Shown: positions 11,318-41,562, numbered from the stretch's first letter. The stretch is 64,000 bases of DNA from Betaproteobacteria bacterium Ga0077523 (GCA_001464695.1 LNDQ01000058.1:1-64000), one strand, 5' to 3'. Notes: generated by a model from the sequence alone, not told the origin. A program made the numbers and translations.

Positions 11318-12925
11318 TCAAGGATTCAAGGCCCATGCCTTGAGCTTCTTCGCCGCCGTGCCGAAACTGCCCAATTGGTAGACGGCCGCGCCCGCTGGTG
11401 AAAAGGTGAACGGCTCGAACGGTTCGGCGAGCATCTGGTCGAGGAATTCCCTGGTGGCGACGCCGGTGGTGACATGCGGATTGAAGCGCTCTCCGGAAGA
11501 CTTGGGAACGAACGTCGACACGTAGTCGATCAACGCCGCATTGTTGGGATCGTCGGGTGTGGTGACGAACGCATCCCACTGGCCGCTTGCCACCGTGAAC
11601 GGGGCTACGGCGGTAATCAGATCCTGTTGCAGCTTGATCAATTCAGGGGTGGGCCTCGCGACAATGCCGGCGACGCCAATGTCGTTGCTCGGGATGTAGT
11701 AGTACTTGAAGGCGTCCAGCTTCATGGCGTTCACGTTGGCGCTGCCAAGTACGTTGCCGGCCGCGGCGTAGACCTTGTCCAGGTCCGCAGTTCGGACGAA
11801 CCGCTGGACGAGCGTGATGTGCGGACGGTGCGTTGCGTCCAGGGCAAAGCCCTTGGGGAAGACCTCGAGCAGGCGGGCGTTGTTGGCTTCGGCATGCCGG
11901 AGCATCGTGGCGTCCGGCTCCAACAGGATGTCGATGGCCGTGACCGCCTTGGGTACGGCAGGGAAGACCAAGTTCCAGTCGTTCTTCATGTCGACAACGG
12001 TCCACCCATTCGCCTGCGCCTCGTCGAGCGCCTTGTCCAGATGGCCAATGGAGGACTTGCGGTCGTAGGCCCATTCGCGCTCGGCGTCCGTGTGGCGGAC
12101 TATGAGTGCGAACCGCGCGCCGCTGCCGGCGGTCGCCCATTGAAGCATCTGAAGGTCGCCGTCGGAATTGCCGAAGGCCGCGATGGGCCGGCGGCCGATG
12201 TGCGAGTGGATGCCCACGGGCTTGCCTTCCTTGTCGTCGACGAAGTTGAGTTGCGGCAGGCGCACGAGTACGGGCTTGCCCTCGCGCATCTCGAACTTCG
12301 TCTTGATGCTGCTGCCGACCACCTGTTCAGGCGGAATTCCGTAGACCTTCTCCACCCAGGGGCGCATGAACTCGATGCCCCCGCCGGAAACGATGAAGGT
12401 CTTGAAGCCGTTGGCACGCAGATACGCGAGCAGTTCCAGCATTGGCTGGTACACCATCTCCGTGTAGGGACGCTTGGTCACGGGATGCTTCGCGGTAGCG
12501 ATCCAGTGGCTCACGATCTGTTCGAATTCCTCCGTCGTCATGCCCGCGTGCGTGGCCATCACGATCTGCGCAATGGCGGGTTCGCCGCCGGCGAGGGCGG
12601 CCTTCACGTCGCCCTTCAGCAGCGAGGCAAAGGGTTCCTTGGTCTTCCATTCGGGATGCTGGGGCGCGAGCGCCTTCACCCGGTCCAGTGCGAAGAAAAG
12701 CTGGAAATACATCGGCTGCTCGGCCCAAAGCGTGCCGTCGTTGTCGAAGGTGGCGATGCGCTCAGCGGGCGGTACAAAGTCGGGCGAACCTCCCTGGGTG
12801 ACCTTCTCGACGAATTGAATGATCGCCTGCTTGGGCGCGCTATCGTTCCATGACGGCAACGGATCGGCCGCGAAAGCGCTCACCGCGGACAACGCCGAAA
12901 CGAACACAATCAGTAGTCTGTTCAT
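11318..12925 (-). CDS. Exported HAD-family phosphatase with C-terminal 2H phosphoesterase (LigT-like) domain
   Basis: Signal peptide MNRLLIVFVSALSAVSAFAA; HAD motifs FDNDGTLW, VSGGG, FGNSDGD; C-terminal paired HxT motifs RPHITLVQRF and NPHVTTGVAT. Confidence 0.8.
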   Translation of the reverse strand: MNRLLIVFVSALSAVSAFAADPLPSWNDSAPKQAIIQFVEKVTQGGSPDFVPPAERIATFDNDGTLWAEQPMYFQLFFALDRVKALAPQHPEWKTKEPFASLLKGDVKAALAGGEPAIAQIVMATHAGMTTEEFEQIVSHWIATAKHPVTKRPYTEMVYQPMLELLAYLRANGFKTFIVSGGGIEFMRPWVEKVYGIPPEQVVGSSIKTKFEMREGKPVLVRLPQLNFVDDKEGKPVGIHSHIGRRPIAAFGNSDGDLQMLQWATAGSGARFALIVRHTDAEREWAYDRKSSIGHLDKALDEAQANGWTVVDMKNDWNLVFPAVPKAVTAIDILLEPDATMLRHAEANNARLLEVFPKGFALDATHRPHITLVQRFVRTADLDKVYAAAGNVLGSANVNAMKLDAFKYYYIPSNDIGVAGIVARPTPELIKLQQDLITAVAPFTVASGQWDAFVTTPDDPNNAALIDYVSTFVPKSSGERFNPHVTTGVATREFLDQMLAEPFEPFTFSPAGAAVYQLGSFGTAAKKLKAWALNP

Positions 12926-13028
12926 CGCAATTCCCCATTCGCCCCTCGACTGCCTGCGTCGGGATGCCGATCGATTGCAAGAAGGAACGAGGCGCCCCAG
13001 TCTGGCAGCACCTCGATCCCAAACCGCT

Positions 13029-14615
<1,587 letters not shown>

Positions 14616-14739
14616 GTCTTCTCTCCCTTGTTACCTCTCGACGATTCCCGCAAAGCAGGAGCACCCGTCGGACCCGATCAACGCCAGGTCTCGGTGCTCC
14701 CGGGTTGCAGACTCAAGCACGTGCCACCCGGCGCTGACT

Positions 14740-14767
14740 TGCAGCACCCGTGAGAATGGGTGCTGCA
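14740..14767. other. Perfect 10-bp stem hairpin between the two sulfatase genes
   Basis: TGCAGCACCC GTGAGAAT GGGTGCTGCA; no T-run on the minus strand. Confidence 0.6.
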
Positions 14768-14804
14768 GCCCGCGATGATGCGGACTCCCACGGTCAGAGT
14801 GAGC

Positions 14805-16361
14805 TCACTGCTTCCCGACGTTGCTCATCACCGCTTCCATCACACGGTCGAGGTTGAAGCTCCCCGGTTTCTGCCGCGGCGGAAACTCCTTGAAGCTCTG
14901 CAGCCACTGTCCCACGAAAGCCCCTGCCGGCGCCATGAGGAACATCCGATCCATGTACCAGCGCTGATAGTCCATCGCGTACTCTTCCTCCGCACGTTCG
15001 AACGGGTCCATGCGCAGGTTCGTGAGTGACGGAGCACGCAGGGGAACGAATGGCTCCTGCCACACCTTGAGGCCCTTGCCGTCCTGCCGGAGGAAGGTGA
15101 TCTTCCACGCGTCGTAGCGCAGCGCGGCCACGCTGCCGTCGTCGGTCCAGTAGATGAACTCGTGGCGTGGCCACGCCGCTTCGCCGCGCAAAGCGGGGCC
15201 GAGGTCGTAGCCGTCGAGATGCACCTTGTAAGTCCTGTCACCGATCGTGCGACCCTTCAAGAGGTCTTCCTTGGCGGTCTTGTCGCCGGCTGCGGCGACC
15301 AGCGTGGTCAGCATGTCCTCGTGCGCGCCGATATCGTTGATCACCGTGCCGGGCTTGACGACGCCCGGCCACCTGATCATCGTCGGTACGCGGTAGCCGC
15401 CTTCCCATTGGGTGTTCTTCTCACCGCGAAACATCGTGCTGCCGCCATCGGGCCAGGTGAACGTCTCGGCGCCGTTGTCAGTGGAATACATGACGATCGT
15501 GTTCTCGTCGAGCCCCAGCTCCTTGAGCCGGGCGAGCACCTGCCCCACATGTCCATCGTGCTCGGCCATGCCGTCCGCATAGATACCCAACCCGGTCTTG
15601 CCGGCCGATTCCTTCTTGAGGTGCGTGAAGACGTGCATGCGGGTGGAGTTCCACCACAGGAAGAACGGCTTGTCGGCCTGCTTCGCGCGCTCCATGAAAT
15701 CGAGCGCCTTGGCAGTGACTTCCTCATCGATGGTCTCCATGCGCTTGCGGGTGAGCGCGCCGGTGTCGGTGATGCGACCGTCGGCGAAGCTGTGGATGAC
15801 GCCGCGCGGACCGAAGCGCTTCTTGAACTCAGGACTCTTCGGGTAGTCGGCGTTCTCCGGTTCTTCCTCTGCGTTCAGGTGGTAGAGATTGCCGAAGAAC
15901 TCGTCGAACCCATGGTTCGTCGGCAGCATGTCATCGCGATCACCGAGGTGATTCTTGCCGAACTGCCCGGTGACGTAGCCCTGTGCCTTGAGCAAAGTGG
16001 CGATCGTCGGGTCTTCCTTCTTCATGCCCTCGGGCGCGCCCGGCAGACCGACCTTGGTGAGGCCGGTGCGAATCGGCGACTGGCCGGTGATGAACGCTGC
16101 GCGGCCGGCGGTGCAGCTCTGCTGCCCATACCAGTCGGTGAAGATCGCGCCCTCTTTTGCGATGCGGTCGATGTTCGGGGTCCGGTAACCCATCATGCCC
16201 ATGTTGTAGGCGCTGACGTTGAATTGACCGATGTCATCCCCCCAGATGACGAGGATGTTGGGTTGCTTCGCTTCTGCCTGCGCGGACAACAGGCCGAGGG
16301 TCGTGAACAGCGCGACCATGAGACCTTTCGATGCGGATAACCCGCCAGCCATTGACTTCAT
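14805..16361 (-). CDS. Type I sulfatase (arylsulfatase), paralogue of the neighbouring gene
   Basis: MKSMAGGLSASKGLMVALFTTLGLLSAQAEAKQPNILVIWGDDIGQFNVSAYNMGMMGYRTPNIDRIAKEG...QQSCTAGRAAFITG. Confidence 0.93.
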   Translation of the reverse strand: MKSMAGGLSASKGLMVALFTTLGLLSAQAEAKQPNILVIWGDDIGQFNVSAYNMGMMGYRTPNIDRIAKEGAIFTDWYGQQSCTAGRAAFITGQSPIRTGLTKVGLPGAPEGMKKEDPTIATLLKAQGYVTGQFGKNHLGDRDDMLPTNHGFDEFFGNLYHLNAEEEPENADYPKSPEFKKRFGPRGVIHSFADGRITDTGALTRKRMETIDEEVTAKALDFMERAKQADKPFFLWWNSTRMHVFTHLKKESAGKTGLGIYADGMAEHDGHVGQVLARLKELGLDENTIVMYSTDNGAETFTWPDGGSTMFRGEKNTQWEGGYRVPTMIRWPGVVKPGTVINDIGAHEDMLTTLVAAAGDKTAKEDLLKGRTIGDRTYKVHLDGYDLGPALRGEAAWPRHEFIYWTDDGSVAALRYDAWKITFLRQDGKGLKVWQEPFVPLRAPSLTNLRMDPFERAEEEYAMDYQRWYMDRMFLMAPAGAFVGQWLQSFKEFPPRQKPGSFNLDRVMEAVMSNVGKQ

Positions 16362-16571
16362 CAGGACCCCTCCGGTTTGAACTGGTTTTGGTGCTGCCGA
16401 CGTCACCCTTAACGGTCGGCGGAACAGGCTTCCGGTCTATTCGCGACACCCGACTTTCAGCACTCTAACCGATCCTCGTCCGGCAGGTCGCTGCATCGCC
16501 GCCAGTCCTGTGCTGCTCCCGGCAGATCACGTCCATCGTCCGGCACTCCGCGGATCGCGCGTCGACGGATG

Positions 16572-17573
16572 TCAGAATGCGGCGACTCGCTGGATGACCC
16601 AGAACATCGCGAAGCTGCCGATGGCATAGGGCGGAACGCGCCAGGCCCAGGTCGGTGCCTGCACGCCCGAACGGCGGGCGACTCTTCGGGCCAGGGCCAG
16701 GCTTGCGATGACGCACCCGATGAACAGGATCTGTCCGATCTCGACGCCGACATTGAAGCACAGCAGCGCGACGGGGATCGCGGTTTGCGGCAAACCCACC
16801 TCGCTCAATGCACCGGCGAAGCCGAAGCCGTGCAGCAAACCGAAGACGAATGCGACCAGCCAGGGAAAGCGTTGCGTGAGCCCTGCCTGGCTCTCCCGGC
16901 CACGGACGATTTCGGCCGCCACGAACACGATGCTGAGCGCGATGGTGGCTTCCACCGGCGGCCCCGGCACATGCACGAATCCGAGCGTCGCGCCGGCCAG
17001 GGTGATGCTGTGCGCCAGCGTGAACGCCGTTACGGTCACGATGAGGCGCCGCACGCCTTGCACCAGGATCAACAGTGCGAGCACGAACAGCAGGTGGTCG
17101 AACCCTCCCAGAATGTGCTCCATGCCGAGCACGAGATAGGTGCGGGCGATCTGCATCGCACCCGATGCGGCCTCGACCACGAAGGACGCAGCGGAGGGCG
17201 TGAGGCGTGTCACCTGCGCCGTGCCGTCGAGGCGCTCGATGCGCACGAGCACGTCGGTCATCGTTACGCTGAGCCCCTTGATCCCGATCCGGCCTTGCGC
17301 CAACCCGCCTGCGCAGCGGATCGCCCAGCGCTCGGTGAACGCGCCGTTGACCATCGCGGCGCGCGGCTCGCTCACACTCCTGCAAGTCGCCGGCAGTTCG
17401 GGGTAGAGCCCGAGGCGAAGGTTCTCGCCGAGCCCCGGCACCTTCCAGAACACGTCGTAGGCGTCGTCTGCGGTCTGGCGAAACTCCAGGTATCCAGGGC
17501 GCACCTCGTGCGCCGCGGCGGGCGTGGCTACGAACGCCAGGAGCAGATGCACGATCAGCAGCGCGCGATTCAT
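16572..17573 (-). CDS. HupE/UreJ family membrane protein
   Basis: Signal peptide ...ATPAAAHEVRPGYLEFRQTADDAYDVFWKVPG; C-terminal GMEHILGGFDHLLFVLALL..FTLAHSITL..FGLLHGFGFAGAL..FNVGVEIGQ. Confidence 0.9.
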   Translation of the reverse strand: MNRALLIVHLLLAFVATPAAAHEVRPGYLEFRQTADDAYDVFWKVPGLGENLRLGLYPELPATCRSVSEPRAAMVNGAFTERWAIRCAGGLAQGRIGIKGLSVTMTDVLVRIERLDGTAQVTRLTPSAASFVVEAASGAMQIARTYLVLGMEHILGGFDHLLFVLALLILVQGVRRLIVTVTAFTLAHSITLAGATLGFVHVPGPPVEATIALSIVFVAAEIVRGRESQAGLTQRFPWLVAFVFGLLHGFGFAGALSEVGLPQTAIPVALLCFNVGVEIGQILFIGCVIASLALARRVARRSGVQAPTWAWRVPPYAIGSFAMFWVIQRVAAF

Positions 17574-17591
17574 CGACGGCAGCCGATCCGG

Positions 17592-18440
17592 CTACTGCGC
17601 GGGCAGCCCCGGCAAGTCGACCGTGACTTCATAGCGCTTCAGCAGTTCCTGGTAGGTCTGCTCGTTCGCCTCGACCCGTCGTGCGTTGATCCACTCGCGC
17701 CGAACCGCATCGCGAACATCCGCCAGCGCCGGCACGTGCCCCTCCGTACGTTCGCTCACTCGCACCAGGTGCACGCCGAAGCCGGACTCGGTCGGGCCCT
17801 CCCATCGGCCCGGCGCGAGCCCCTTCAGTGCTGTGGCGAACGCTGCACCGAATTGCTTGGCGACCACGTTCTCCGGGATGGCCGTGAAGCGGCGCTCCAG
17901 CAGGAACGGGTCGCCGAGGGAGGACCATTCATCCTTGGCGTCACCTCGCCTCAACCGGGTAAGCAACGCCTCGGCATCGCGCGCGAGGTTCGCGCCATGC
18001 TTCCCGGGGTCGAGATAGACCTGGCTGAAGGTGAACGCAGGTTCCACGCGAAACGAATCGGGATGCGCCGCCAGGTATGCGGTCAAGTCGGCGTCGCTCG
18101 GTTCGGCCGGCGCCGCACGATCCTCCGAAATGAACTCCATCTTCTGCCGCAGGCGGCGGCGGATGACCGTATCGTCCTGGTCCAGCCCCAACGCCATCCC
18201 TTCGCGGTAGTAGACCTCTTCGCGAATGCGCTCGCGGACGAGTCCTGCAAGCTCGTCAGCCGTGGGCGAGCGCTGCCAGGTCTTCGCAAAGCCGAGAGCG
18301 AGACTCTCGACCTGGCCCCGCGTGATCACGATCCGACCCGGCTCCGCACCGCTGCGCTTGGACACCATTGCGTAGGCCGCGAAGAGCGCAGCCCCCAGCA
18401 ACAGGAAATGCAGCAGCGGTTCGCGCAGGAACCTCCGCAC
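17592..18440 (-). CDS. Membrane-anchored peptidyl-prolyl cis-trans isomerase, parvulin type
   Basis: N-terminal TM; LREPLLHFLLLGAALFAAYAM; GRWEGPTESGFGVHLVRVSERTEG parvulin C-terminal motif. Confidence 0.88.
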   Translation of the reverse strand: MRRFLREPLLHFLLLGAALFAAYAMVSKRSGAEPGRIVITRGQVESLALGFAKTWQRSPTADELAGLVRERIREEVYYREGMALGLDQDDTVIRRRLRQKMEFISEDRAAPAEPSDADLTAYLAAHPDSFRVEPAFTFSQVYLDPGKHGANLARDAEALLTRLRRGDAKDEWSSLGDPFLLERRFTAIPENVVAKQFGAAFATALKGLAPGRWEGPTESGFGVHLVRVSERTEGHVPALADVRDAVRREWINARRVEANEQTYQELLKRYEVTVDLPGLPAQ

Positions 18441-18442
18441 GC

Positions 18443-20335
18443 TCAGGGGTTTTGCGGCGTGTACCAGATCGGCGAGCTCCAGGCGCGCTCCTGGATGGTC
18501 GCCGGTACTTTCGTGAGGGGTGTCATGTTCTGGCGCACTGCGTCGTAGGTGTTCCAGCGGGGGGTCGGAACCTCGAGGACGCGGGCATAGTAGAAGGCGC
18601 GCTCGCCCGCCTTGAACGCCGGATCGGTCCAGCTCGCGGCAAGCTGTGTCGCGCCGATCTCGTTCGTGTAGGTGGCCGTCTTCAGGTCGACGCTGTTACC
18701 GACCGGGGCGAGCTTGCCGTTCGCGCCGATCTTGCGATCGCCCGACCAGGCAACGTCGAAGACCTTCTCGTGTTGCTTGCCGGCCGCGTCGACCCAGCCC
18801 TTGACGATCTGGACCCGATCGAGATTGCCACTGTTCGGGTCCTTGATCGCCATGACGAGGAACGTGGGCGCCTTGCCGGCACCCGGCTTCAGGTCCCCAC
18901 CCATGGGAACGCCCTTGGCATAGGCGAGCTTCACGAAATCCGGCTTGTTCACCTCGTCCGCAGCATAGTCGAAGCTGCCGAAGAAGCGCACTTTCATCAT
19001 CGGTCCCGAGGTAGCGAAGGTCTCCTTGCGCTGCATCGCATCCCAGATGGCCTCGCGCGTGTTCTGCGGTGCCCAGACCCCGGCCAGTCCGCCCGAGCTG
19101 AATTCCTGGATCTGCTGGATCTGACCTGCGGGTGCGCCGGGCAAGCCGGTCAAGCGCTCCTTCGCATTGTTCTCGAAGGCGAACTTGCCCGTGAAGTTGT
19201 ATTCCTCGTGACTGGCTGCCGCATTGTGCGTGTCGGTGTCGCCGATGAATCCGTACTTGAACGGATTGCCGGCGCCTGTCTTGTCCTGGCTCATGCCGTC
19301 GAGCAGCGCCTGGCGGACGAAGCTGCCCTTGCGGCGCTTCGGCCGCTCGAAATCCGCCGACAGCGTGTAGTCCCATTGCTCGAATCCGGCGAACTCGTCG
19401 GTCGGTGAAAGGTCGGGGTGGGTTTCCGAAGTACCCTTGATCTGGGTGATCTCGTACAGCGGTTCGTTGTCCGCGCGGGTCTTGTTGTAGGCCGCATCGA
19501 TCGGCTTGCCGTCACGCTTCACCGTGTCGAACATGAGGCCGTCGCTCGCATTGCCGTTGTGCGGGATGGCGAACAACGTTGAACTCCTGGCGCGCTGCTC
19601 GTCCATCCATTTCCACAGGACTTCCGGATCGTCGGAGTCGAGCGCCGACAGCACGAGGTCCGGCAAGTGTTGGGTGTCGCGAAAGACGATCACCCGGTGC
19701 AGGTTGCGTTTCTGCGGATTCGAAGTCCATTCGAAGCCGGCGAAGGTGGTGAACTTGCCGGGCACGTAGTTGGCGTCGGCTGCCTTGATGATCTCGGCCC
19801 AGACCGACCGCGCCAGCGCCGGGTCGCTCAGTTGCGGGTCGACCTTGCCGGCACTCATGTCGCGCAGAACGCCGGCAAAGGCCTGGAGCCGCACGTTGGC
19901 GTCCGACGAAGTCACGCCCTTGGCGAGCTCGGTCTTGCTGAGCGGGCTGTCGGGGTTCGCCATCTGGTTGAACACACCCATGTACTCGGCGTGGTCGGCA
20001 ACCATGTAGAAGTCGAGTGGCGTCTTCAGCTGCAGGTCCGGGCCGCCGCTGCCGGTGATCGCCTTGCCCTGCGCCCAGGCGTAGGCATCGGACGGCGTCG
20101 TCTTGGAGCCATTGGTGAACCCGTCGAAGGACCATCCGGTGTGGACATGGACATCACCGAAATAGGCGTTGTTCTCCGGATTGGGGGGCGGCAACGTGGC
20201 TGCCGGCACTGCTGGTGCCGCGGGCGCAGATGCCGTGGGTGCAGGCGGCGACGAAGAAGGCGAGCAGGCCGATACTGCCAGGGCGAGACCCGTGCAGATT
20301 GCGGTAATCGGGAAACGGATTCGCCTGACATTCAT
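18443..20335 (-). CDS. DUF3604 domain lipoprotein, predicted PHP-like metallohydrolase
   Basis: Lipobox LALAVSACSPSS; NAYFGDVHVHTGWSFDGFTNG...LDFYMVADHAEYMGVF...IPHNGNASDG...GFIGDTDTHNAAASHEEYNF. Confidence 0.9.
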   Translation of the reverse strand: MNVRRIRFPITAICTGLALAVSACSPSSSPPAPTASAPAAPAVPAATLPPPNPENNAYFGDVHVHTGWSFDGFTNGSKTTPSDAYAWAQGKAITGSGGPDLQLKTPLDFYMVADHAEYMGVFNQMANPDSPLSKTELAKGVTSSDANVRLQAFAGVLRDMSAGKVDPQLSDPALARSVWAEIIKAADANYVPGKFTTFAGFEWTSNPQKRNLHRVIVFRDTQHLPDLVLSALDSDDPEVLWKWMDEQRARSSTLFAIPHNGNASDGLMFDTVKRDGKPIDAAYNKTRADNEPLYEITQIKGTSETHPDLSPTDEFAGFEQWDYTLSADFERPKRRKGSFVRQALLDGMSQDKTGAGNPFKYGFIGDTDTHNAAASHEEYNFTGKFAFENNAKERLTGLPGAPAGQIQQIQEFSSGGLAGVWAPQNTREAIWDAMQRKETFATSGPMMKVRFFGSFDYAADEVNKPDFVKLAYAKGVPMGGDLKPGAGKAPTFLVMAIKDPNSGNLDRVQIVKGWVDAAGKQHEKVFDVAWSGDRKIGANGKLAPVGNSVDLKTATYTNEIGATQLAASWTDPAFKAGERAFYYARVLEVPTPRWNTYDAVRQNMTPLTKVPATIQERAWSSPIWYTPQNP

Positions 20336-20496
20336 GGGTTGGTCCTCATTGCGATGGGTGCGCCTGCAGTCGATGCGTTCGGGCGTGCGGACTGCGTTGC
20401 GCCCGGCATCATATCCGACGGGGCGATGCCTTTGCCGGGATTGAACGGCGGCCGCCGCGGCAGCACAAGAAAGAACGCGTTGGCGACCCTACAACT

Positions 20497-22833
20497 TCAG
20501 CGAGCGTCGCCCGATCCATGCACCGGTTGCGCCCATTGCGCCGCCTTGGCGGCATTGCCCCGTCGCCGCTCGAAGTCCGCCAGTGCCTCGCGAATCGCGC
20601 GATCGCCCGGTTCGCGCGCTGCGATCCCCTCGAGAACCCGGATCGCCTGATCTGTCCGGCCGGCATCCTGCAGTGCGATGGCATAGACGTAGCCAAAGCG
20701 CGCATTGCTCGGATCGAGTTCGCTGGCGCGACGCAACGCCAGCAGCGCTTCGGCCTTGCGCTGCTGGCGCACGAGGGCAAGTCCTCGCGCGTGATGCAGA
20801 GCCGCGAACCCGGGGGAATGCTCGAGACCCGCTTGCAGCACGGCCTCGGCGCCCGGTTCGTCGCCGCTGCCCCGCAACGCATCGGCGAGATTGATCGTCG
20901 CAGGCGCATAGCCGGCATCCAGTTCGAGGGCGCGGCGCAACTCGGCGATCGCCGCGTCCCATTGCCCGCGCGCTGCGAACAGCGAACCGAGGTTCGTGCG
21001 CGCCTCCGGACGGTCCGCATCGAAGCGCAGGGCCGCGACCAGTTCCGCCAATGCGGCGGAAAACGCTGTCCGATCCAGCTCGGCCAACTCCCGCTCGTGC
21101 GCACCGGCCAGCGCCCGCGCCACACCCATTCGCACCTCGCGCACCGGATCGCGCAGGCGATAGGCGAGCACGGGCACAGCGTCACCCGGATCGACCTGAT
21201 GGAATGCCCGTGCGGCGGCAGCGCGTACGAGTGCATCCTCGTCGTTGAGCATCGTCTTCAGTATTTCGCCAGTGGACCGGCCCGGCCACCGCGCCAGCCG
21301 CTCGATCGCACTCGCCCGTGCCATTGCCGACTGCGTTCGATCGGCGACGACCGCTCGCAACCGTGTCGGAGCATCCGCATCGCGCCGATCGTCGGTGTGG
21401 AAGGCGTCGGCGAAGCGCTGGAAGCCTTCCGGCGTGCGACCGCCCCAGCTCTCGATCGCCGCCGCGGCCCACGCGGGCTTGCGGTCGCGGTGGCATTCCG
21501 TGCAAGGCTCGGGCACACCCATCGCCACTGCACGATCAGGCCGGGGAATCCGCATCGAATGATCGTGGCGCGGATCGACGACCATGTAGCGCCGCACCGG
21601 CATATGACAGGTCACGCATTCAGAACTCTTCGAAGCGACCGGATGACGGTGATGACTCGCGGCGTCGTACTTCGTCGCGAGATGGCATTGCGTGCAGACG
21701 CCGTTGCCGGGCACTACGAGCTTCTGTGAATGCGGTTCGTGGCAATCGCTGCAGGTGACACCCTTCGCGTTCATGCGGCTCTGGAGGAACGAGCCGTGGT
21801 TGTAGACTTCGTCGCGCATCTGACCATCCGGGAAATACAGATCCGGCTGCAACGTCGCCACCTGATGGGTGTCACCCAGCGGACGCCCGTGGATGCCCAC
21901 ATCGGCGAACTGCCCGCGCCGTGCATGGCAGACTCCGCAGGTTTCGATCTCGCGCCGGCTTGCGCGCGGCGCGCTGCGTGCCGCATTGCCGCTGCCAGGG
22001 TCGATCGTCCACTTCGCGCCGCGACGTTCGTCGAGCGCGATGGGCAATCCTTTGCCGGCTCCGGAGAAACGCTGCCATCCGTCAGCTTGCTTCGCCCATG
22101 CAACATGATTCGACCCGGGACCGTGGCAGGACTCGCAATTCACGTCGATATCGGTCCACGAGGTCTTGAACGTGTCGGCTGCCGCATCGTAGTTCTTGCG
22201 CAGATTGGTCGAATGGCATCCGGCACACTGGTAGTTCCAGTTCTGGTCGATGCCGGTCCAGTGCAGGCGGTCGCCGGCACGCAGCTTCTCGTTCGGATAG
22301 AGGTGGAACCAGCGCTGCCCGCCCTCGCTTTTCGGCCTCGTATCCCACGCCACGCCGAGCGCCTGCAGGCGGCCGTCCGGAAACTCGATCAGATATTGCT
22401 GCAGCGGCTGGAAACCGAAGGTGTAGCGGATCTCGAAATCGGCAAGCCTGCCATCGGGGCCGTCGGTGTTCACGAAGTAGCGGTCGTCACGGCGGAAGAA
22501 CGTGCTGGTGATCCCGGCCTGCGTGAACTTCGCGTTGTCGAAATTGCCGAGTACCGCAGCACCCGACGCCTCCTGCATCGCGAGGTCGTGGTGCGATCCG
22601 CGCCATGCCTGCGCCTCCTTGGCATGACACGACGTGCAGTTCGCGCCGCCAACGAAGGTCGGCTCCGGCCGAGGCAGCGCAGGCGTTTCTCGCTGCTGAA
22701 TCCACCATGCGGCTCCGATCGTCAGCGCAACGATCGCACCGAGTCCAACCCACAGGCTGACGCGGTTGCGAGCCGGCACCTCCGCCGCGACGGGTGTAGC
22801 CGCCACCGGCGGCTTGCGCGACTTGCGGCTCAC
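20497..22833 (-). CDS. Multiheme c-type cytochrome (8 CxxCH motifs) with HEAT and TPR repeats
   Basis: CTSCH, CAGCH, CESCH, CGVCH, CSDCH, CTQCH, CVTCH, CTECH; N-terminal TM; C-terminal HEAT-like then TPR repeats. Confidence 0.93.
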   Translation of the reverse strand: MSRKSRKPPVAATPVAAEVPARNRVSLWVGLGAIVALTIGAAWWIQQRETPALPRPEPTFVGGANCTSCHAKEAQAWRGSHHDLAMQEASGAAVLGNFDNAKFTQAGITSTFFRRDDRYFVNTDGPDGRLADFEIRYTFGFQPLQQYLIEFPDGRLQALGVAWDTRPKSEGGQRWFHLYPNEKLRAGDRLHWTGIDQNWNYQCAGCHSTNLRKNYDAAADTFKTSWTDIDVNCESCHGPGSNHVAWAKQADGWQRFSGAGKGLPIALDERRGAKWTIDPGSGNAARSAPRASRREIETCGVCHARRGQFADVGIHGRPLGDTHQVATLQPDLYFPDGQMRDEVYNHGSFLQSRMNAKGVTCSDCHEPHSQKLVVPGNGVCTQCHLATKYDAASHHRHPVASKSSECVTCHMPVRRYMVVDPRHDHSMRIPRPDRAVAMGVPEPCTECHRDRKPAWAAAAIESWGGRTPEGFQRFADAFHTDDRRDADAPTRLRAVVADRTQSAMARASAIERLARWPGRSTGEILKTMLNDEDALVRAAAARAFHQVDPGDAVPVLAYRLRDPVREVRMGVARALAGAHERELAELDRTAFSAALAELVAALRFDADRPEARTNLGSLFAARGQWDAAIAELRRALELDAGYAPATINLADALRGSGDEPGAEAVLQAGLEHSPGFAALHHARGLALVRQQRKAEALLALRRASELDPSNARFGYVYAIALQDAGRTDQAIRVLEGIAAREPGDRAIREALADFERRRGNAAKAAQWAQPVHGSGDAR

Positions 22834-38697: not shown

Positions 38698-40551
38698 TCA
38701 GGGCTTGCCCGGCAGCCACGACGTGAGCCAGGGCACATAGGTGATGAGCAGGACGCCGATCAGCAGGACGCCGAAGGTGGGCAGCACGGCCCGGACCATC
38801 TCGGGCATCGGTTTGCCGAATCGGTAGGCGGCGAAAATGACGTTCATGCCCACCAGAGGCGTGAGAAAGCCCAGTTCCATGTTGGCAAGGAACATCACGC
38901 CGAGGTGCAAGGGATCGATGCCGAAGGCCATGCCCACCGGCACGATCAGGGGCACCATCACGATGGTCGCCGAGAACACGTCCATCACGCAGCCGATGGC
39001 GAGCAGGCATACGTTCAGCGCCAGCAGGAAAACCCAGCGCGATTCGATGTTCGCCTTGACCCAGTCGGTCACGTGGTCCGGCACCTGGGCATCGACCAGG
39101 TAGTTGGTGAGCCCGAGAGCCACACCGAGGATGAGCAGGATGCCGCCCACCAGCAGGCCGCATTCGGCGAAGACTCGCGGCACGTCGCGCCTGAATTCGA
39201 GATCGCGGTGCACGACCACCGTCACGATGAACGTGTACAGCGCGGTGACCGCAGCCGCTTCCACCGGCGTGGCGAATCCGCCGAACAGCATGCCGATCGC
39301 CACCAGCGGTGTTGCCAGCTCCCATTTGGCGTCCCACAGCGCTGCGCGGACTTCGCCGGCATCGAACGGACGCGCTGCCTGCACGCCGCGGCCGCGCTGG
39401 CGTATGCCCCACGCCAGCAGCAGCGCCGCCATCAGCAATCCGGGCAGCACGGCTGCAAGGAACATGCGATCGAGCGGCACCTTCGCGATCACGGCATACA
39501 GGATCAGCGGCAACGACGGCGGCAACAGCACGCCGAGCGAACCGGCACTCGTGATGAGTCCGACGGCGGAGCGCTCGCGATAGTGCGCGCCGACCAGCAA
39601 CGGCAGCAGCAGGCCGCCCAGTGCGAGAATCGTGACGCCCGACGCACCGGTGAACGCGGTGAAGAAGGCACATGCGACCACGGTCACGAGCGCCGGTCCC
39701 GCCCGAAAGCCACCGAAGAGCGTCTGGAACACGCGGATCAGCCGCGTCGGGGCGCGGCTCTCGGCGAGCAGATAGCCCGCCAACGTGAAGAGCGGCACGG
39801 CCGGCAGGGACGGATTCACCACCAGCCGGTAGTGATCGAGCGGGAGCGAAGCGATCGGCAGACCCTCACCCCAGAAGAGCACCAGTGCCGCGCCCCCCAG
39901 CAGCGCGAACACCGGACCTCCAAGCGCGGTGGCGACGGCGATGATCGCGAGCAACGGCCAGGTGAGCCCGGCTGCCGGCAACGGCGCAAAGGCGAGCACG
40001 GCCGCAGCGGCAGCAACCGCCAGCAGCACGGCGATGCGAACCGACCACGCATCCGCGGCGCGCCAGAGGAGCCGCGCCAGGATCAGCGCGAATCCGATGG
40101 GTAGCAGCAGTTCGACCCACCACGTGGGCAGGCCGGCGACGAGCTCGTCGCCGGCGCCGCGCTCGGATTGCACGTACTGCACCGCCGCCACGCACAGGAA
40201 TACCGTCACCACGGCCGCCACGCCGTTCGCGATGGCGTGGGCGCCGACTCGTGCCTTGCCCGCGAGGAACAACTGCACCGTCGAGATCGTGAGCAACCGC
40301 CCTTCGCGCGCCGCGAGGGCAGGTCCGAGCATTCCCACGGCGAGCACCAGATGCTGCGTCAACGCCTGCACGCCGGGAATGCCGACGGCGAACACGGCAC
40401 GCAACACGATCTCCGCGATCGGCAGCAGCACCATCGCGGCGAGCGCCAGCGCCACGACACCATTCTCGAGGCGATGGGGCCACGCACGCGGCGCCTCCTC
40501 CGCGATCGGGGCATGAGCAGCGAGCGCCTCGGGTGCGGCGCCGGCGCTCAC
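38698..40551 (-). CDS. TRAP transporter fused small/large permease (DctQM)
   Basis: GTG start overlapping the expected DctP stop; HRLENGVVALALAAMVLLPIAEIVLRAVF (Q) then PLFTLAGYLLAESRAPTRL...FFTAFTGASGVTILALGGLLLPLL (M). Confidence 0.88.
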   Translation of the reverse strand: MSAGAAPEALAAHAPIAEEAPRAWPHRLENGVVALALAAMVLLPIAEIVLRAVFAVGIPGVQALTQHLVLAVGMLGPALAAREGRLLTISTVQLFLAGKARVGAHAIANGVAAVVTVFLCVAAVQYVQSERGAGDELVAGLPTWWVELLLPIGFALILARLLWRAADAWSVRIAVLLAVAAAAAVLAFAPLPAAGLTWPLLAIIAVATALGGPVFALLGGAALVLFWGEGLPIASLPLDHYRLVVNPSLPAVPLFTLAGYLLAESRAPTRLIRVFQTLFGGFRAGPALVTVVACAFFTAFTGASGVTILALGGLLLPLLVGAHYRERSAVGLITSAGSLGVLLPPSLPLILYAVIAKVPLDRMFLAAVLPGLLMAALLLAWGIRQRGRGVQAARPFDAGEVRAALWDAKWELATPLVAIGMLFGGFATPVEAAAVTALYTFIVTVVVHRDLEFRRDVPRVFAECGLLVGGILLILGVALGLTNYLVDAQVPDHVTDWVKANIESRWVFLLALNVCLLAIGCVMDVFSATIVMVPLIVPVGMAFGIDPLHLGVMFLANMELGFLTPLVGMNVIFAAYRFGKPMPEMVRAVLPTFGVLLIGVLLITYVPWLTSWLPGKP

Positions 40552-41562
40552 GACTTCTTCTTGCCGTTCCGGTATTCGGCCAGGACCTTGATGATCTCGT
40601 CCCACCTCCTCCGCCGCGGCACGCCACTGCGCCTCCTGATCCGGTGTGGGCACGGTGACCTTGAGACCGCGCTTCTTCATCGCTTCGATGGAGTCGAGAT
40701 CCTCCTGCCGCGCGCGAGCGCGCATGTCTGCACCGGCCTTCTCGCCGGCACGCTTCAATTCGTCACGCGCCGCCGGGCTCATCGCATCCCAGACCTTGCG
40801 GGTCATGACCGCGGCGCCGACGATGGGAACCCACTTCACGTCGAGCATGTTGGGCGCCGGGCCATTGAATTGCCCGGCAAGCGCGAAGAACGGCGCGGTC
40901 GGTACCGCGTTGATGAGGCCCGTCTGCAGGCTGGGCAGGATGTCGGCCGTCTCGAGCGGCACCGGCTGATACCCCATCGACTTCATCAGGTTCACCTGCT
41001 CGGCATTGCCGGCCCATGCGAACACCTTGAAGCGCTTGAACTCGGCCGGTGTCGCAGCCGGCTCCTTCGAGAAGTAGCGCACCCACCCACCGTCGGCCCA
41101 GAAGAGCACCACGAAGCCCTTCTCGCCCAGGCGCGCTTCCAGGGTCTGGCGCACGCGCTCGCGCACGTAGTCCACTTCGGCCCAGTCGCGAAACAGCATG
41201 GGCACGGTCTGCAGCGCGAGCGCCGACCGGTCGATCTCCGCCAGACCCACAGCGGAGAGCAGCGCCGCATTGAGCTGTCCGACGCGCATGCGCCGGACCA
41301 TGTCGGCCTCGCCACCCTGGCTGCCGTCGCCGTAGATGACGAAGGTGGAGCCCTCGCCCTGCACCTTGCGCCAGTCCTCGCCCAGCTCCTGCAGGATGCG
41401 GAAATACGACGATCCCTTCGGCGCGATGGTGCCCAGGCGCACCTTGACCGGATCGTCCGCCCGCGCCGCGGGCTGGGAAAATGCGACCGCGGCCAGCAGC
41501 ACCGCGGCGAGCATATGACGGGAGGATAGTGACATCGTCATCGAGCGCATCTTTCGAGTCAT
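40548..41562 (-). CDS. TRAP transporter substrate-binding protein (DctP), 3' end in a shifted frame
   Basis: Signal peptide; KVRLGTIAPKGSSYFRILQELGEDWRKV...; the frame after about 40601 reads DEIIKVLAEYRNGKKKS-stop, a typical DctP C-terminus. Confidence 0.82.

Follow-up and report, generated by a model that had tools for sequence, protein, structure and literature searches.

Three adjoining genes of a 64,000-nucleotide stretch of DNA from Betaproteobacteria bacterium Ga0077523, which is called here the window, encode a DUF3604 protein, a parvulin-like PPIase and a permease of the HupE/UreJ kind. We think that there is about an even chance that the function of these three genes, as a cassette, is the maturation of an exported metallohydrolase of the PHP type. 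The DUF3604 family is without an assigned function, and a search of open literature found it named in one paper only; its recognition as an exported relative of the CehA/McbA enzymes provides a testable metal site and a substrate class. Besides offering the anglerase-permeases a candidate client, the cassette has an independent second version in the same genome, which suggests how exported multi-metal hydrolases may fold and gain their metals outside the cytoplasm, a process that is poorly understood. A wider proposal, which we hold only tentatively, is that the PPIase and the anglerase-permease may make up a dedicated periplasmic folding and metallation system that serves at least two families of PHP enzymes and spreads between phyla together with its client.

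Organization of the locus

The DUF3604 gene (18443–20335, minus strand) codes for 630 amino acids and matches Pfam PF12228 with an E value of 8e-224. It is followed on the same strand by the PPIase gene (17592–18440, minus; 282 amino acids, GTG start; Pfam Rotamase_2, E 4e-13) and by the HupE gene (16572–17573, minus; 333 amino acids; Pfam HupE_UreJ_2, E 7e-47). The initial annotation had described three adjoining genes separated by 2 nt (DUF3604/PPIase) and 18 nt (PPIase/HupE), and the ORF calls and the Pfam matches bear this out. The spacing alone suggests that the three genes would be read as one transcript; no promoter-like site was found, and terminator-like matches were no commoner than in shuffled sequences.

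The cassette is part of a row of seven minus-strand genes (11318–22833) in the order multihaem cytochrome-TPR, DUF3604, PPIase, HupE, sulfatase, sulfatase and HAD phosphatase. The cytochrome at the head of this row (20497–22833, minus) is a membrane-anchored neighbour with eight CXXCH motifs and HEAT and TPR repeats, and its gene is not conserved together with the cassette. At the other end, a type I sulfatase that is probably exported (14805–16406, minus) begins 165 nt downstream of HupE and carries a formylglycine-type CTAGR motif, which is also found in the second exported type I sulfatase (13029–14615, minus). The mutual identity of these tandem sulfatases (13029–16406) is about 55%. The last gene of the row encodes an exported protein in which a HAD-type phosphatase is joined to a 2H phosphoesterase-like (2_5_RNA_ligase2) domain (11318–12925, minus), a neighbour whose membership of the unit is uncertain. 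A long plus-strand ORF at 16569–18548 was rejected as an antisense artefact. Elsewhere in the window (38698–41562) there is a TRAP transporter in which the DctP, DctQ and DctM parts are apparently joined in one ORF of 954 amino acids.

The DUF3604 protein and its PHP-like metal site

We are highly confident that DUF3604 belongs to the PHP superfamily, and the enzyme very probably uses several metal ions. The PF12228 match is full-length (positions 1–591 of 591), with 745 bits against a curated cut-off of 20.4. All nine metal-ligand positions of PHP proteins (HxH, DH, E/H, H, DxH) are found in order, and their codons lie on the minus strand. Motif I, DVHVHTGWSFD (residues 61–71; 20123–20155), holds the ligands H63, H65 and D71, and motif II is D114-H115 (19991–19996). 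E202 (19730–19732), a glutamate of the bridging type, is placed by the structural model at the end of a predicted strand formed by residues 195–203. The ligands H213 (19697–19699) and H259, the latter within IPHNGN (19559–19561), come before motif IV, D368-T-H370 (19226–19234). Classical PHP sites have their ligands in this same succession, HxH..D, H, E, H, H, DxH. H63, H65, D71, D114, H115, E202, H213, H259 and D368 are identical in all 87 DUF3604 homologues, and H370 is kept in 86 of the 87, the single exception being H370R. The PHP-like motifs that had been noticed beforehand are consequently present and not due to chance.

The N-terminus of the protein is hydrophobic (residues 6–24) and ends in a lipobox-like VSAC, which is consistent, for this member of the family, with the lipoprotein predicted in the initial annotation. 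In several homologues an ordinary signal peptide takes the place of the lipoprotein signal.

An AlphaFold2 model of the protein (pLDDT 93) locates H63/H65, E202, H259 and D368/H370 in predicted strands or directly after them. The protein has a C-terminal beta domain. When this model was compared with the PDB by Foldseek, the PHP domain of RNase AM was the match with the highest probability among those listed (0.92, with an E value of 0.026 and a low TM-score). No match had an E value below 0.001, and most of the other matches listed are beta-sandwich proteins. Large insertions in DUF3604 are perhaps the reason for the weak E value to PHP. Sequence searches of the PDB with the DUF3604 protein, with a DUF3604 profile and with HupE gave nothing usable. 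Taken together, the nine ligand positions, the AlphaFold2 model, the Foldseek result and the hhalign comparisons described below support the PHP-like metal site.

The confident model and the profile comparison point to DUF3604 as a probable remote, exported relative of the PHP enzymes of CehA/McbA type. Comparison by hhalign with a gathered set of CehA/McbA-like proteins gave 95.3% when the whole protein was used, the match running through the segment that follows the barrel. The PHP part gave 93.8%, and here a relaxed alignment pairs the motifs colinearly. In the gathered proteins GDxHxHT, H, E, H and SDxH are invariant or nearly so, and this is the ligand order of DUF3604. As with CehA/McbA (NF038032; carbaryl and carbofuran hydrolases), DUF3604 is an exported PHP-type protein with such ligands, and in both cases a conserved LxGLRxGxxF segment comes after the ligands, with a beta domain behind it. 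For its activity, McbA depends on the histidines of its polymerase/histidinol phosphatase-like domain (review PMC8292978). Unlike CehA/McbA, DUF3604 constitutes a Pfam family of its own, with large insertions in the barrel and with its own invariant motifs. The protein had no match to NF038032 at the curated cut-off, nor to PF02811, and a search of NCBIfam returned no model for it or for the HupE protein.

The PPIase and the HupE protein

The PPIase is a membrane-anchored, parvulin-like protein with one N-terminal transmembrane segment (about residues 8–27). This anchor and the Rotamase_2 domain make it similar to the membrane-anchored parvulins of the PpiD/SurA kind; unlike those, the cassette PPIases are tied to DUF3604/HupE gene clusters and frequently have glutamine instead of the first parvulin histidine. 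Catalysis by parvulins requires both of their active-site-type histidines, but their fold does not. In the protein of the window these positions are occupied by Q140 and H224. Among 46 relatives the first one is Gln in 21, this protein included, and His in 23, and the second one is kept in 45. Isomerase activity is uncertain because of the 21 glutamines at the first position, and judging from these residues a role as chaperone would be as likely as catalysis. A function as folding helper is plausible.

The HupE protein is best read as an anglerase-permease with predicted metal binding. A signal peptide is followed by a ZrgA/anglerase-like beta-sandwich (about residues 22–132) and by the transmembrane permease domain, and the structural model (pLDDT 91) combines a beta-sandwich with a membrane domain made of helices. 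The HupE_UreJ_2 domain comes after a non-cytoplasmic domain, as in the Ang-1 anglerase-permeases. The top structural match of the sandwich is ZrgA of Vibrio cholerae (8EZW, 8F1B; probability 1.00, E 1.6e-4), and the Ang-1 structure 9GCE was not among the best 50 matches listed for this outer domain. For Ang-1, the Cu/Ni-binding domain of the HupE/UreJ-2 'anglerases', ZrgA has been reported as the nearest structure (PMC12537917). The outer domain resembles the zinc-binding ZrgA proteins (PMC9820375) in its best structural match; ZrgA, however, serves an ABC transporter as a free solute-binding protein, whereas the ZrgA-like domain of the cassette is fused to the HupE permease domain.

The predicted first mature residue of HupE, with the cleavage site placed by inspection between AAA and HEVRP, is H22 (17508–17510, minus). 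Immediately behind the AxA-type end of the signal, 40 of the 46 cassette HupE proteins have His and the other 6 have Asp, and this Asp in place of His1 is a difference from the Ang-1 anglerase-permeases. The permease domain has a motif of HX5DH type, H153-x5-D159-H160 (17094–17117, minus), which is invariant in the HupE alignment. The view of HupE as a metal-handling protein, put forward in the initial annotation, is strengthened because of the ZrgA/anglerase fold outside the membrane and the predicted N-terminal histidine. The neighbours of anglerase-permeases described in PMC12537917 are DUF4198, indigoidine-synthase-like and PfkB genes, and the main text of that paper mentions neither DUF3604 nor an isomerase.

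Linkage of the three genes

The linkage was studied in 299 genomes sampled by phylum, 21 of which have DUF3604. In this sample the profile of the cassette PPIase matched 20 genes with E values of 4e-65 or lower; the next match, at 2e-45, is the second copy in the window's own genome, and the following ones are at 2e-21 and worse. DUF3604 is present in all 17 genomes that hold the 20 genes of this PPIase subfamily (Fisher p 2.8e-24, an optimistic value since the species are related). The distance between the subfamily gene and DUF3604 is at most about 1.5 kb in 19 of the 20 cases, and about 40 kb in the exception (genome G300). In a collection of species, both partners stand beside DUF3604 in 45 of 80 loci, among them loci of Pseudomonadota, Bacteroidota, Verrucomicrobiota, Acidobacteriota and Nitrospirota. 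In 24 of the 80 the genes follow one another strictly as DUF3604-PPIase-HupE within 200 nt, but the pair may also be placed upstream or inverted. Gene order is kept between phyla at about 40–45% protein identity, and a DUF3604 protein with only 25% identity (locus L157) still has both the PPIase and HupE. Conservation of the three-gene unit is supported in this way across several phyla.

The three genes are not an obligate trio. Of the 40 DUF3604 loci that have flanks of 5 kb or more in both directions, 17 are without the pair, and many of these 17 belong to marine lineages (e.g., SAR86), so that DUF3604 is either not always dependent on the pair or is served by other copies of it. HupE_UreJ_2 exceeds the cut-off in 65 of the 299 genomes, mostly in unrelated contexts. 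The use of any HupE_UreJ_2 gene as a marker of the cassette was rejected, as the PPIase was found at only 2 of 30 sampled HupE loci, both of the close subfamily. The possibility that the genes occur widely apart from each other therefore has a divided answer: HupE_UreJ_2 in general does so and DUF3604 can be alone, but the cassette PPIase subfamily was not found apart. One locus (L188 8426–10752, genome G279) has a PPIase-HupE pair but no PHP gene, and the neighbours of the pair are TonB-receptor-like and PepSY-like genes.

A second cassette in the same genome

Contig C119 of the window's own genome carries a second cassette (L146 3617–8584) composed of genes for an exported PHP protein, a PEP-CTERM protein, a PPIase and HupE. 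This PHP protein has 773 amino acids, with the motifs GDFHNHTTCSDG...SSDWHN. Its match to NF038032 (CehA/McbA) has an E value of 3e-10, which is below the curated cut-off, and its profile probability against the gathered CehA/McbA-like set is 100%. It lies within about 5 kb of that PPIase in all five other members of the genus having the PPIase (six of six including the own genome), and DUF3604 is absent from 11 of 11 relatives in the genus. Phylogenetically the second cassette is one event in one genus, yet it is independent of the DUF3604 linkage. Direct comparison of DUF3604 with the second-cassette protein by hhalign gave a weak 6.6%, from an alignment with 6 close sequences only, and the link between both proteins runs through the CehA/McbA-like set. 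In the sampled genomes, no homologue of this protein outside the genus was found beside a PPIase-HupE pair. On contig C104 of the same genome (L145 8440–10880), another HupE_UreJ_2 gene adjoins that of an exported acetamidase/formamidase (FmdA_AmdA), and a similar acetamidase match occurs near the second cassette at locus L211.

Proposed mechanism and alternative explanations

In a maturation cassette, the DUF3604 protein would leave the cytoplasm in an unfolded state and be anchored in the cell envelope, and the inner-membrane PPIase-like protein would help it to fold during its emergence. The nine His/Asp/Glu ligands would hold a two- or three-metal site for hydrolysis of an ester, which might be a phosphoester, a carboxylester or a carbamate. 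HupE would capture a transition metal in the periplasm via its N-terminal His/ZrgA-like domain and would control how much metal is available locally, whether by taking it up, by presenting it to the enzyme, or in both ways. The second PPIase-HupE pair would serve the CehA/McbA-like PHP enzyme in the same genus, and the pair would thus be a helper module that can be used again with more than one exported PHP enzyme. Computation supports the PHP ligands and fold class, the linkage, the anglerase-like fold and the second cassette; catalysis, folding help by the PPIase and metal delivery or control by HupE are what we infer. Against this reading count the 17 loci without the pair, the weak Foldseek E value to PHP, the lack of the first parvulin histidine in about half of the PPIase relatives and the pair at L188 that has no PHP gene. 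The weak point is the direction of transport. Permeases of the HupE type are expected to bring metal into the cytoplasm, but DUF3604 is an exported protein and lies outside it, and for this reason periplasmic delivery can be proposed only conditionally: it would need a hand-over from the capture domain of HupE. Without such a hand-over, the unit may serve general scavenging or metal uptake, the two main rival explanations.

In the case of general scavenging, the PPIase-HupE pair would assist whatever hydrolases a scavenging locus exports (sulfatases, HAD phosphatase and PHP enzyme) and would not be specific for PHP proteins. We consider this unlikely, even if sulfatases are clearly enriched within 10 kb of DUF3604: 8 were observed against 0.68 expected (p 6e-7), and when the window is left out there are still 6 against 0.66 (p 6e-5). 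The test covered 20 genomes with 29 separate DUF3604 places, genome G201 being left out as it has a DUF3604 fragment only. In genomes G212 and G110 the cassettes likewise have sulfatases of this type at their flanks, two sulfatases and the exported HAD-2H protein come next on the same strand in the window, and the HupE gene adjoining the acetamidase/formamidase would also fit a general helper. However, all 17 genomes with the PPIase subfamily have DUF3604 as well, whereas sulfatases are near only some of the cassettes. Metal acquisition seems to us likewise improbable. The exported PHP hydrolase, with the sulfatases, would degrade an ester or organic ligand to which metal is bound, HupE would import the freed metal, and the PPIase would be a general helper of the envelope. 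The fusion of a metal-capture domain (PMC12537917) to a permease, for which import is the natural direction, and the TonB-receptor-like and PepSY-like neighbours of the related pair at L188 speak for this explanation. On the other hand, a Zur-box search of the window matched no Zur-type operator, a TonB gene is absent beside the cassette in the window, and the second cassette too pairs with a PHP enzyme, not with uptake genes.

The genes might also be co-transferred cargo, for instance on plasmids, without functional coupling, which in our opinion is very improbable. The absence of DUF3604 from all 11 relatives in the window's genus would agree with such transfer, as would a conjugative plasmid of Sinorhizobium meliloti (L254 5091–10790) that carries DUF3604-DUF3604-PPIase-HupE between VirB and TraA genes. 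Among plasmid records, 78 have DUF3604 and 78 have the PPIase, with nearly identical lists of genera. Against mere cargo stand the gene order kept between phyla at about 40–45% protein identity and the existence of the independent PHP-PPIase-HupE set.

Other arrangements around DUF3604 were observed. A flavobacterial genome has five consecutive DUF3604 genes (L035 153–11842), followed after about 3.6 kb by a single PPIase-HupE pair, and DUF1254/DUF1214 proteins recur next to DUF3604 (L054 6970–8364; L253 6970–8403).
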